A DNA stretch of 46,002 bases from NCBI GenBank assembly GCA_024408085.1, contig JAKSVH010000008.1:1-46002 (forward strand). Direction: 5' to 3'. A program made the position numbers and the translations under genes. A model generated the notes under the pieces. It did not search any database. It was not told where the DNA came from and saw nothing but the letters and a program-made list of their open reading frames with translations. The first letter of the stretch is position 1. Every line of letters starts with the position of its first letter. Shown here piece after piece: positions 10,319 to 39,819 of the stretch. The stretch comes from Bacilli bacterium (lineage in GTDB: Bacteria > Bacillota_I > Bacilli_A > RFN20 > CAG-826).

Positions 10319-10390
10319 CACTGAATTTATTAAATTCATATGTATGCGTTTTCATTTTTTAATAAAAACCGCGATAAAATCTTGAAATTG

Positions 10391-10405: not shown

Positions 10406-12016
10406 ATGAAAAAGTCGTTAATTTTAGTACTCAGTTTGCCATTATTACTCGCTTCTTGCGACATAAAAATGGGTCACCAAACTACTGATCAAAATCCAGG
10501 AGAACAAACTTCTCAAACTGGTGATCAATCCGGACAAGGAACCGAAGGTTCAACCTCAGGTGGCGAAGGCCACAGCGGAGGCTTTCACCCTGGCGGAGGA
10601 AGTCATTCAGGAGGCGATACAACTGGAGGAGAAACTACTGGTGGAGAAACTACTGGTGGAGGAACCGAAACAGGTGGTCAAACTACTGGTGGAGGAACCG
10701 AAACAGGTGCTCAAACTACTGGTGGAGGAACCGAAACAGGTGGCGGAACACAAACAACTTCAACAACTGTCTCAAAAGCTATGTCTGATTGTGGTTTTGT
10801 GAATGCTAAAGATGTCACTGAATTTAATCTTGCAAAAGATTTAAAAGTGACTTTATCAAAAGGCTCAAACACACAAAATGCTCCAAAGTACTATTCAGCT
10901 GATCAAACTCTTAGAGTTTATGGTGGCAATACAATTACTTTTTCAGCAGATTCAAATATAACAAAAATTAAATTACAAATTACATCTGATAGTGGAGATA
11001 ATGGAATTTCCCCTTCGACAGGTTCAATTTCTAACGATAGAACAACTTGGACAGGCTCTGCAAAATCAGTTACTTTAACAGTTCTTAATAAAAGTGGAAA
11101 AATCTGCATTACCTCAATAAGTGGGTCATATGGCGGTTCAGGAGAAACGACAGGAGGTAGCACTTCTGGAGGTGGAACAACCGGCGGCAGTACAACTGGA
11201 GGCGGACAAACAGGTGGTGTTGATGATGGTGCAAACTACATCTCTACATGGCCAGAAAACTATAAACCATATGTTACCACATACCTTAATGGTATGCTTC
11301 CATGCTTCTTAAACACTAATAAGAAAAATTTATTTACAGGATATATGACTGGTTCTGAAATTTTCTATGATGAAAACGAAAACCCATATATGGTTCCTTA
11401 TTTTAATCCTTATATTAAAAATACAAGCCCAGGCATTAATTACGAATATGACTACGGAACTATCCTAAGAAATGCTGGATTTAAACAAACAGATGAATTT
11501 TATGATGACGAAATAGAAGCAACTGTCCACTACTATCAAAAAGGACAATGCTATGTTCAATATAATAAGCACAAAGGAGAAGATAATGTCTATTATTTCG
11601 ATGTTTATGCTTATTACGACAACTACTACACCGGTTCATTCAAAAATTCATATGACATCCAATACGACAATAAAGAACTTGCTTTAGCAAATAAGTACAC
11701 GAGCAATAACAAAACTGTAAAAGTTGGCAATTGGAGCGTTACAATGACTGATGTTATGAAAAGTTCAGAAACAATCCAATTAAAAGCCGATACAGGACGC
11801 ATTGTTATTCAAGGTTCCCTTAAAGGATTAATCATCGAGCCAGAGATTGGTACAAATGCAGAAGCTTTATTCGTTAAAGCTGGTACAAGCGCTTCAAATG
11901 CTCAATGCATATTCAATAATGGCGGCTATTTCGAATTCAAAAGCGGTACAACTTACGCAGAGATAAGCGCTAATTATCGCGTATTAAATATTGAATACTT
12001 CGATATTATCTATTAA
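10406..12016 (+). CDS. Surface lipoprotein with Gly/Thr-rich linkers
   Basis: The start at 10406 is chosen because MKKSLILVLSLPLLLASC is a complete lipoprotein signal with lipobox LASC; the in-frame ATG at 10340 would add 22 residues and spoil it. The mature protein has 536 residues: a low-complexity Gly/Thr/Glu linker with 11-residue repeats, a first beta-rich domain (about residues 110-245), a second Gly/Thr linker, and a C-terminal Tyr/Asn-rich domain. I recognise no enzyme family. A surface-displayed role is inference from the lipobox and spacers. It diverges from hydC and converges on the phosphatase gene across a shared terminator. Confidence 0.85.
   Translation: MKKSLILVLSLPLLLASCDIKMGHQTTDQNPGEQTSQTGDQSGQGTEGSTSGGEGHSGGFHPGGGSHSGGDTTGGETTGGETTGGGTETGGQTTGGGTETGAQTTGGGTETGGGTQTTSTTVSKAMSDCGFVNAKDVTEFNLAKDLKVTLSKGSNTQNAPKYYSADQTLRVYGGNTITFSADSNITKIKLQITSDSGDNGISPSTGSISNDRTTWTGSAKSVTLTVLNKSGKICITSISGSYGGSGETTGGSTSGGGTTGGSTTGGGQTGGVDDGANYISTWPENYKPYVTTYLNGMLPCFLNTNKKNLFTGYMTGSEIFYDENENPYMVPYFNPYIKNTSPGINYEYDYGTILRNAGFKQTDEFYDDEIEATVHYYQKGQCYVQYNKHKGEDNVYYFDVYAYYDNYYTGSFKNSYDIQYDNKELALANKYTSNNKTVKVGNWSVTMTDVMKSSETIQLKADTGRIVIQGSLKGLIIEPEIGTNAEALFVKAGTSASNAQCIFNNGGYFEFKSGTTYAEISANYRVLNIEYFDIIY
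10646..10744 (+). repeat. Three tandem 33-bp units inside the lipoprotein gene
   Basis: Units at 10646-10678, 10679-10711 and 10712-10744 differ at only a few bases and encode the 11-residue unit (E/Q)TTGGGTETG(G/A). A related 15-bp unit GAAACTACTGGTGGA precedes them. Copy-number changes would keep the frame and alter linker length. Confidence 0.9.
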
Positions 12017-20130: not shown

Positions 20131-20505
20131 TTATTTGCTTTTAATTCTGCCTTTGTTTTGTCCCTTAGAATTGTGGACTAACATTTTGCCACCTTGGTTT
20201 GCAGCCATTTGTTTGGAATATTCCATAGCTTCTTTTTGGGTGTCAAATAATTTGATGACCTTTTCACCGCCAGCAAACTTAACAGCCCATTTGTTATCTT
20301 CTGGACGTTTTACAACGTGATAAACTCTTGTGCCTTCCTTGAGATCTGGCTTCTTGGCTGGTGCCTTTTTAGCAGGAGCAGCTTTCTTGGCTGGTGCAGC
20401 TTTCTTGGCTGGAGCTTTCTTGGCTGGTTCCTTCTTTACAGGTTTTGCCTTTGCTGATTTCTTTGGGGCCTCAATTTTTTCGGCTTTTTTCTTAAATAGC
20501 GACAT
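20131..20505 (-). CDS. Basic histone-tail-like protein with a DUF2188 domain
   Basis: The 124 residues fall in two parts. Residues 1-53 are Lys/Ala/Pro-rich with repeated PAKKA(A) units, like histone H1-type tails. Residues 58-120 are a DUF2188 domain (YHVVKRPEDNKWAVKFAGG, DTQKEAMEYSKQMAANQGGKMLVHNSKGQ), a small family of unknown function. The end is basic too (GRIKSK). Nucleic-acid binding is a fair inference from the tail; a nucleoid or RNA-binding role is not proven. AAGGAG precedes the ATG. It is monocistronic, just left of the TnpB element. Confidence 0.85.
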   Translation of the reverse strand: MSLFKKKAEKIEAPKKSAKAKPVKKEPAKKAPAKKAAPAKKAAPAKKAPAKKPDLKEGTRVYHVVKRPEDNKWAVKFAGGEKVIKLFDTQKEAMEYSKQMAANQGGKMLVHNSKGQNKGRIKSK

Positions 20506-37970: not shown

Positions 37971-39014
37971 TTAGATATCAAATTCCTCATTAATGCTGAT
38001 AAAGTTTCTGAAACGAGGTAAAAGTATTTCAAATACACCTTTTTGGTTTTTCAAAATCCCTCTTTTTATTAATCTGTCTTTTAATACAGAAATCTGTTTA
38101 ATAGACATAGAACAATTCTCAACAATATATTTAGAGGTGCACTTTCCATTTTCTGGTATTACTTTTAGCAAAGCTAATTCAGATGCTGGAATGTTGTCAT
38201 AGATTTTGTCGTAGCAATAATCTTTAAGTTTTTTATCGTAATCTTCAAGAAGCTTATCAGTGATTTTTTCTTCTTTAGTGAAAAGCGAACCAATTAATTG
38301 ATATGCATAAGCATAACCGTTTGTTAATAATGTTAATTCCTTAATAACTGATTCGCTTTCGTTATTAAAAATCTTTTTATATGAATTGAAAACATCAATT
38401 AAATCCAGTGGTTCTAGATAAATCTTTGGAGCTCGATATAAAAATGTTAATGTTTTATTGTTTTGAAGAGAATGAATGTTTTCGTATAAGCCAGTCATTA
38501 GCAAGAAAATTTCATAACCATCTCCTAAAAATGATTGAAAATCATGGGCAAACGATTTCATTTCCTTTGAGTTAGTAACTTCATCTATTGAAACTAAAAG
38601 CTTTTTGTTGTGCTTTTTAAGATGAATAAGCATCTTTTCAAGTAAACTCTTAATATTTGAAATCGGTGTTTTACCATCAATTGAGAACGTTAAACCATGG
38701 AATGAGAAAGAGAAAGATGGTTTTAAAAATAAATGTTTTACGCTTTCACTTTCGTAAATATTAGCAGCAATCTGCTCAAGAATGTCACGATCTGGATTAA
38801 CTTTAACAGTAACCCAATCTGTTTCTTCACTCATCATACTATGTACCTTGTTTAGTAAGACAGTCTTTCCACTACCTCTAACACCAGAAATTACATATAA
38901 ATTTGAAGACGGAACTTCGGAGCAAAAATCATAACAAATTTCAGAAATTAGGTTGTCTCTACTTAAAAAATTATTAGGTAATTTGCCAAAAGTAAGATCA
39001 AATAAATTAACCAT
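37971..39014 (-). CDS. Orphan AAA/STAND-like ATPase with winged-helix C-terminus
   Basis: The 347 residues carry Walker A GVRGSGKT (44-51), Walker B KLLVSIDEV, a sensor-like stretch LLMTGLYENI, and a C-terminal winged helix (about 275-340, SELALLKVIPENGKCTSKYI...). This is the plan of archaeal-type orphan ATPases and MNS/STAND-like proteins. Partners are not encoded alongside. It could be a DNA-bound regulator, a defence or stress ATPase. AGGAGG precedes the ATG, and its promoter has a large array of upstream repeats, suggesting tight and possibly self-mediated control. Confidence 0.85.
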   Translation of the reverse strand: MVNLFDLTFGKLPNNFLSRDNLISEICYDFCSEVPSSNLYVISGVRGSGKTVLLNKVHSMMSEETDWVTVKVNPDRDILEQIAANIYESESVKHLFLKPSFSFSFHGLTFSIDGKTPISNIKSLLEKMLIHLKKHNKKLLVSIDEVTNSKEMKSFAHDFQSFLGDGYEIFLLMTGLYENIHSLQNNKTLTFLYRAPKIYLEPLDLIDVFNSYKKIFNNESESVIKELTLLTNGYAYAYQLIGSLFTKEEKITDKLLEDYDKKLKDYCYDKIYDNIPASELALLKVIPENGKCTSKYIVENCSMSIKQISVLKDRLIKRGILKNQKGVFEILLPRFRNFISINEEFDI

Positions 39015-39037
39015 TTTAATTTCCTCCTCGCACTTTA

Positions 39038-39066
39038 ATTATATTAAAAGAAAATCTAACATTCAA
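39038..39066 (-). promoter_or_regulatory. Promoter of the orphan ATPase gene
   Basis: On the minus strand: -35 TTGAAT (39066-39061), 17-base spacer, perfect -10 TATAAT (39043-39038). An AATCTAAC site in inverted orientation fills part of the spacer (39053-39060), and the repeat array begins 8 bases upstream of the -35. Confidence 0.75.
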
Positions 39067-39140
39067 GAAAATTTGTTAGATTGTGTTAGATTTGTTAGAT
39101 TGTGTTAGATTGACAAAAATTTGTTAGATTGTGTTAGATT
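39053..39140. repeat. Phased array of GTTAGATT (AATCTAAC) sites
   Basis: Six direct copies of GTTAGATT start at 39075, 39085, 39094, 39104, 39123 and 39133, with spacing 10, 9, 10, 19 and 10 bases. One inverted copy AATCTAAC is at 39053-39060. Spacing near one or two helical turns puts all direct copies on one DNA face. The array ends just before the AlkD-like stop codon and lies fully in the ATPase promoter region. Confidence 0.9.
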
Positions 39141-39141
39141 G

Positions 39142-39819
39142 CTATCTTTTCAAAGATCTTAAATATTGCTTTTGCTCTTCACTAATGCGATAGCTTTCAA
39201 TTGCTTTTTGAATTGTCTTATTGTGTGCCCAAGTATCAAGTGAATTATTAACTATGTATGGTATTGTTGCGTCCCATTGCTTTGCTAATGCAGTCGCAAA
39301 GAACCATGCTACCATCATATTGACGTAATATTCCTTAGTTCTAACGTTTGAAACAAGTTTTAAATATGGTTCTTTGAAATCGTTGTCTAAATAGAAACTC
39401 ATTAACATTTCAATACCAAATCTACATGTATAAATTTCTTTTGATTTAATCCATACTTTAATACTTTCAAGAAGTTTGACTTTATTCTTTCTTAATGCTT
39501 TGGGAGACATAATGTCACATACAGCCCAGTTATCAACGTATGGGAGGAATCTATTTAATTCAAAAATAATTTGATCAAAATCTTTCATCCCTGAAATAAG
39601 CAAAGCATGAAGCATGTTCTCATCATAATATTTATGTGGAAGTTCTTTTAAGAAAGCTTTTGATTCTTCATTTTTACTATATTGCTTTGCAAACTGCCTT
39701 AAAATTGGCACTCTAACGCCTAAAAATAAACTAGGATCAATACCTGGAGTTAATTTGCTTTGAAATGAAGCATATTTTGCATCACTTATTTTTGTTAATT
39801 CTTTTTGCAAATTGTTCAT
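39142..39819 (-). CDS. AlkD-like DNA alkylation repair protein
   Basis: The 225 residues match the AlkD/AlkC-type HEAT-like repeat family: LFLGVRVPILRQFAKQY, the Trp/Asp motif LPYVDNWAVCDIM (catalytic-region Asp next to Trp) and the end YYVNMMVAWFFATALAKQWD. Family members remove positively charged alkylated bases without base flipping. It is coupled to the upstream Bro-N gene by an ATGA overlap. No adaptive-response genes are near. Whether this member is a glycosylase or only a DNA-binding relative is undetermined. Confidence 0.88.
   Translation of the reverse strand: MNNLQKELTKISDAKYASFQSKLTPGIDPSLFLGVRVPILRQFAKQYSKNEESKAFLKELPHKYYDENMLHALLISGMKDFDQIIFELNRFLPYVDNWAVCDIMSPKALRKNKVKLLESIKVWIKSKEIYTCRFGIEMLMSFYLDNDFKEPYLKLVSNVRTKEYYVNMMVAWFFATALAKQWDATIPYIVNNSLDTWAHNKTIQKAIESYRISEEQKQYLRSLKR

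Follow-up and report, generated by a model that had tools for sequence, protein, structure and literature searches.

Orc1/Cdc6 proteins combine an AAA domain with a winged helix, and iteron Rep proteins use winged-helix binding to iterons near their own gene. Arrays of short direct repeats at promoters or gene starts are known from three further systems. BldC of Streptomyces, a winged helix-turn-helix (HTH) regulator, binds direct repeats of 9-bp sites head-to-tail on promoters as oligomers of variable length (PMC5859096). In Omega (ParB)/parS of pSM19035, arrays of short non-palindromic repeats lie over promoters, and the protein that binds them controls those genes (PMC9499535). In BstA-aba, the 5′ end of each homologue's gene carries a cognate DNA element whose direct repeats are required, and aba DNA sequesters or inactivates BstA (PMC8585504).

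The locus analysed here lies in a stretch of 46,002 nucleotides, hereafter the window. The 8-mer AATCTAAC occurs there in six exact direct copies on the coding (-) strand between 39075 and 39140 (it reads GTTAGATT on the plus strand), with start-to-start spacings of 10, 9, 10, 19 and 10. On the coding strand, AATCTAACACAATCTAACAAATTTTTGTCAATCTAACACAATCTAACAAATCTAACACAATCTAACAAATTTTCTTGAATGTTAGATTTTCTTTTAATATAATTAAAG comes directly after the stop codon of an AlkD-like gene and is followed by AGGAGG and by the ATG that starts a 347-aa protein (Table 1). The preliminary description had reported these six copies and their spacings, together with an inverted copy between the two boxes of a TTGAAT-17-TATAAT promoter, and all of this was confirmed. 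The spacer copy is inverted in the window and direct in relatives with the same layout.

Table 1. Coordinates of the array, the promoter and other features of the window
Feature	Position	Strand	Basis or remark
Six direct AATCTAAC sites	39133-39140, 39123-39130, 39104-39111, 39094-39101, 39085-39092, 39075-39082	-	exact match; unique in genome
Inverted AATCTAAC copy in the 17-bp promoter spacer, beside the -35 box	39053-39060	+	sequence; kept in sister genome L011
-35 box TTGAAT	39061-39066	-	sequence; family promoter scan
-10 box TATAAT, 17-bp spacer	39038-39043	-	sequence; family promoter scan
Ribosome-binding site AGGAGG of the ATPase gene	39023-39028	-	sequence
Orphan P-loop ATPase P0001, 347 aa, C-terminal winged helix about 273-347	37971-39014	-	Pfam profiles; HTH matches of relatives
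AlkD-like DNA alkylation repair protein, upstream neighbour; stop codon abuts array	39142-39819	-	kept in L011; absent from other family loci
Bro-N domain protein, 267 aa	39816-40619	-	PADLOC match to phage-defence candidate PDC-S13, 2.3e-125
Coding tandem repeats, 15/18/33-bp units	10610-10756		in 558-aa ORF at 10340
Coding tandem repeats, 15-bp units	20351-20442		in 124-aa ORF at 20131

Seven of the 9 exact copies of AATCTAAC on both strands of the window fall within these 88 bp, and no enrichment was seen elsewhere in the window (60 one-mismatch matches versus 68 expected). The array statistic gave 10 phased pairs of one 7-mer, whereas 200 dinucleotide shuffles gave 0.25 on average and never more than 3. 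A genome-wide pattern scan found the paired motif nowhere else in the 1.15-Mb assembly, and just three further matches, poor and scattered, were recovered at 3 mismatches; the array is unique in the genome. No RNA family of Rfam matched at the array, and RNA-level control of the window gene was rejected on account of the array's position upstream of the promoter. The spacings correspond to ~9.67 bp per site, not 10.5; therefore, the sites rotate by ~170 degrees over the array on relaxed B-DNA, and pairs of sites are in phase while the array as a whole does not keep strictly to a single DNA face. In the sister MAG L011, whose ATPase is 98% identical to that of the window at the protein level, 123 of the 126 bases of array and promoter are kept (98%), compared with 994/1041 bases (95%) of the ATPase gene and 589/636 (93%) of the upstream gene.

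The preliminary assignment of the gene product, an orphan ATPase of AAA/STAND-like type with a winged helix at its C-terminus, agreed with profile searches. P0001 matched ATPase_2 (PF01637) at 33.6 bits (cut-off 33.2) and AAA_14 (PF13173) at 30.1 bits (cut-off 27), with a Walker A motif GVRGSGKT at residues 44-51 and a Walker B motif LLVSIDE at residues 139-145. Within an alignment of 86 family sequences (A2), 82 matched ATPase_2 and 85 matched AAA_14 (E<=1e-3); G44, G49, K50 and D144 are invariant, and R46, G47 and T51 are conserved in at least 90%. The winged helix of P0001 itself is weak in profile searches (HTH_36, E=0.049) and was accepted because relatives match HTH profiles clearly: the C-terminal HTH of member L021 matches HTH_24 (1.1e-7, over its cut-off), and the C-terminus of member L064 matches HTH_5 over its cut-off. 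A structure prediction of P0001, made from an alignment of the window protein and that of L011, reached a pLDDT of 34.5 and was discarded. Upstream, the Bro-N gene overlaps the AlkD-like gene by 4 bases.

The family set comprised 95 members, 94 of them with a testable upstream region. Within the order, 69 of 279 genomes carry a homologue; in wider samples the counts are 18/395 genomes for the class and 16/392 for the phylum, and some genomes carry several homologues, at dispersed sites. Members stand alone on chromosomes among ordinary genes, and no neighbour gene is conserved across the family loci, including any replication, partition or integrase gene. Broken ATPase copies with internal stops occur in L009, L010 and L024, where the arrays are still recognisable. 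A near-identical block consisting of a leader of ~330 bp, the array and the ATPase gene was seen in L044 (1099-3186), L046, L047, L099 and L010. It sits downstream of His, Pro or Ala tRNA genes depending on the genome, and this recently moved block follows different tRNA genes in L044, L046 and L099; its leader contains a tRNA-like remnant, GTTCGATTCC, with GGTGGTG/CACCACC arms. These observations suggest that the tRNA-adjacent block is a small tRNA-linked mobile element.

Protein searches of phage and viral contigs with the window's protein or its small alignment found no viral relatives of the ATPase. The phage family phrog_6841, of unknown function, matched 36 of the 86 aligned members (best 3.4e-17). 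When viral contigs were scanned for the paired word, 116 stretches came up, nearly all of them with a single match; this is about as many as expected by chance on our own estimate, and they were set aside. One 13-kb viral contig (L156, IMGVR_UViG_3300012667_000971) holds five exact CTAACANAATCTAACA matches, and the other contigs hold one or two.

Arrays across the family were scored as one 7-mer repeated at 9-11, 19-21 or 29-31 bp within 220 bp of the start codon. At least 2 phased 7-mer pairs were found in 79/94 upstream regions, compared with 3/131 neighbouring control genes, and 81% of members lay at the shuffle floor (p=0.005). Fifteen of the 94 failed the repeat statistic; the sequences themselves show arrays by eye in nearly all of these, with none visible in L035 and L079, and in some members the arrays are degenerate. 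The commonest spacings are 10 (186), 19 (91), 9 (42) and 17 (11). The 9/17 spacing is limited to a clade with CAAACCTAACAA units, in which a site takes up 8.67 bp. A period of ~9.67 or 8.67 bp argues for a constant subunit step and not for one helix face, so the strict one-face phasing of the preliminary description was not borne out.

The repeated words vary from member to member and include CTAAC, TTCTAA, GTTCTAA, TGACAA, TGATAA, GTATGA, GTATAAC, GTTATGA, TTGCACA, TATACACA, GTTCACA, TTATGTT, GTGTGA and more. Arrays are also often present, by eye and partly by statistic, in plasmid relatives of 21-30% identity from several other phyla, with the words ATACTAAAG in Pseudobutyrivibrio, GTAAAATGAA in Lactobacillus crispatus, GTATAAAC in Chlamydiota, and GACTCACA and TTTCACC in the high-GC DNA of a plasmid from the actinobacterium Arthrobacter; several other plasmid relatives showed no clear array. 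An array upstream is thus retained by the sister genome and, under other words, by nearly every orthologue. As a family feature, the architecture stood and the AATCTAAC word did not: what is conserved is the layout and the matching of protein and DNA.

Promoters were called by a simple consensus scan, and some of the following assignments are doubtful. Among 75 arrays, 61 share sequence with the -35/-10 region or extend across the promoter. Another 7 are located entirely downstream of the -10 box, 3 are confined to the upstream side, and 4 lack a clear promoter; the window array falls in the upstream-only group because the copy in its spacer is inverted. Most often the promoter is TTGAAA-17-TATAAT, and its spacer holds one or two copies.

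Across the family, distances between motifs correlate with distances between proteins (Mantel). Sliding Mantel windows peak at residues 291-325 and also at 66-100, 131-160 and 171-205; after overall divergence was regressed out, the best columns included 76, 75, 158, 157, 149, 186, 292, 305, 306, 309 and 310. For the comparison of residues and words, the words were set in one register, blind to the protein. CTAA occurs in 24 of 24 members that have K306 and V310 and in 0 of 51 that lack them. Only 2 of 314,028 residue pairs predict CTAA perfectly, both including K306, which alone reaches a phi of 0.97. K306-S309-V310 goes with CTAA, and N306-Q309 goes mostly with GACA. Part of the co-variation is phylogenetic signal shared by residues and word. 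On the tree, K306+V310 and CTAA each change six times, always jointly and with no exception; well-supported branches alone hold 3 independent pairs of such changes, 3/3 concordant. Two separate switches are nested in the GTTCTAA clade (L086 versus L040/L097, and L016/L071/L021/L068 versus L065), and in both TTCTAA becomes TTATAA (CTAA to ATAA) jointly with K306S and V310N/S. Joint change of word and residues is expected if the protein reads the array directly, and it is hard to explain otherwise.

Judging from the HTH_24 profile match, positions 305-310 probably form the start of the recognition helix. For the AAA-domain columns 75/76, 149, 157/158 and 186, co-variation with the word is as strong as for the recognition helix, which suggests that the ATPase domain may contact DNA besides the winged helix, as in Orc-type proteins. 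R76 as a reader of the C in CTAAC was not retained; it is a mere trend, and the R76-TAAC link has 8 exceptions.

Taken from sequence comparison, these patterns strongly imply that the ATPase binds its own array. The preliminary description had offered this as a possibility, and it is now well supported because the putative recognition-helix residues co-vary with the word. We consider it likely, though by no means settled, that the array is the cognate operator of the adjacent ATPase, bound head-to-tail and serving autorepression. One ATPase subunit would occupy each 10-bp unit, in such a way that residues 305-310 of the C-terminal winged helix would recognise the core of the word and the AAA-domain surface (75/76, 149, 157/158, 186) would probably recognise its flanks. 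Subunits would align head-to-tail on the direct repeats, one per ~9.7 bp, as an oligomer that may coat the array cooperatively and that would cover or abut the -35/-10 region, shutting down the promoter of the ATPase itself. Assembly or release would presumably be governed by the binding or hydrolysis of ATP.

Repression of the ATPase's own gene is what we infer from array geometry alone, and members whose array lies upstream of the -35 box may instead be subject to a positive effect. Arrays in the spacer or downstream of the -10 box fit repression, which leads us to propose head-to-tail assembly with autorepression; where either repression or activation had been suggested, repression is now the likelier, given the position of arrays on the core promoter or downstream of it. 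The module appears horizontally mobile and has no conserved partner gene, so that each copy would keep a private word and drift by paired changes in protein and array, from which new words would arise. Under autorepression by a cognate operator, the family would be a source of orthogonal repressor-operator pairs: it offers ~75 natural protein-DNA pairs with a partly readable, directly testable recognition code, and the arrays give a handle on the role of widely annotated 'ATP-binding proteins'.

By analogy, the most interesting alternative to autorepression would be self-recognition of the BstA-aba kind. One version, speculative and with a low chance of being right, sees pan-bacterial mobile stand-alone ATPases whose private address array of 10-bp units, together with matching residues, would keep the ATPase bound to, or neutralised by, its own gene. 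Such a self-recognition device, one example being a DNA tag that restrains its own defence ATPase, would diversify like an immunity or incompatibility system. In another, which we rate as rather unlikely, the ATPase would act on foreign or replicating DNA and the cognate array would be an immunity or decoy tag that sequesters or inactivates it, promoter overlap being secondary. A DNA element that is private to each member and placed where an orphan, mobile gene has its 5′ end is consistent with such a tag, as are the required direct repeats of the cognate aba elements at BstA loci (PMC8585504) and the PDC-S13 homologue two genes upstream of the window ATPase. Members also resemble defence-candidate ATPases (mad8, 65/86; PDC-S01, 54/86), but these matches amount to weak P-loop similarity. 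Paralogues of one genome never share a word (0/20 pairs); however, unrelated members of equal divergence do so in only 0.5% of pairs, and because of this low background the paralogue count is uninformative and was dropped as a sign of selection. Tight overlap with the promoter would be unnecessary for a tag, and no phage or prophage context was found. No BstA match was among the PADLOC hits listed.

The ATPase might instead bind the array and activate its own promoter in positive feedback, since in the window and in about half of the family most copies lie upstream of the -35 box, where activators bind. We regard this as quite improbable: it is common for copies to sit between the two promoter boxes or past the -10 box, wholly so in the 7 arrays mentioned above, which fits repression, and near-consensus promoters (TTGAAA-17-TATAAT) need no activator.

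Array and ATPase could also form an origin or centromere module of an integrated element, with an Orc1/Cdc6- or Rep-iteron-like initiator or a partition site. The combination of AAA domain and winged helix, both of which apparently read DNA, an iteron-like array at the gene's own promoter, plasmid-borne relatives and weak ORC-type matches all point this way. Those matches, however, are far below the ORC1/Cdc6 model cut-offs (NF001624, 20.4 bits versus 354; TIGR02928, 18.3 versus 181.3), and lone chromosomal members without conserved replication, partition or integrase neighbours, in several dispersed copies per genome, make such a module very improbable. Finally, a functionless satellite or slippage repeat, to which AT-rich low-complexity intergenic DNA and the degenerate arrays of some members might point, is practically refuted by the linkage of arrays to this gene family and not to control genes, the fixed spacing, uniqueness in the genome, the better conservation of array and promoter than of either flanking gene in L011 and the co-variation of word and residues; array-less orthologues together with many clusters elsewhere, named beforehand as the mark of a satellite, were looked for and are not the pattern found.

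In the open-access literature searched, we found no description of the pairing of this ATPase family with an array, or of a cognate upstream array for ATPase_2/AAA_14 proteins, and the family with its private arrays is apparently undescribed. It has the P-loop ATPase domain in common with these STAND-related proteins. As for Orc1/Cdc6 initiators and iteron Rep proteins, the P0001 sequence falls below all model cut-offs, and no origin context was found. Omega is a ribbon-helix-helix protein that binds gapless 7-bp repeats and works with a separate ParA ATPase in plasmid partition (PMC9499535), whereas the window family has a single AAA plus winged-helix protein, 10/19-bp spacing and no ParA; with no conserved neighbour either, membership in the pSM19035-type ParABS systems was rejected. 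BstA-aba is similar in that each homologue has its own cognate repeat element, but aba covers 63 bp over the start codon with two CCCGCC repeats and is prophage-borne (PMC8585504), compared with 3-12 phased units over the promoter here. BldC, like the proposed ATPase assembly, lies head-to-tail on direct repeats at promoters, but it is a 68-residue MerR-like protein without an ATPase, pleiotropic and with one conserved consensus (PMC5859096). In the window family, the DNA-reading module is part of an ATPase that apparently targets only itself, and each member has its own word; P0001, with 347 aa and no MerR profile match, was not assigned to the BldC family of short proteins made of a winged HTH only. 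Autorepression through repeated operators is an already known kind of circuit; here a whole, apparently undescribed ATPase family would make use of it, in which the 10/19-bp architecture is rigid while the words change freely.
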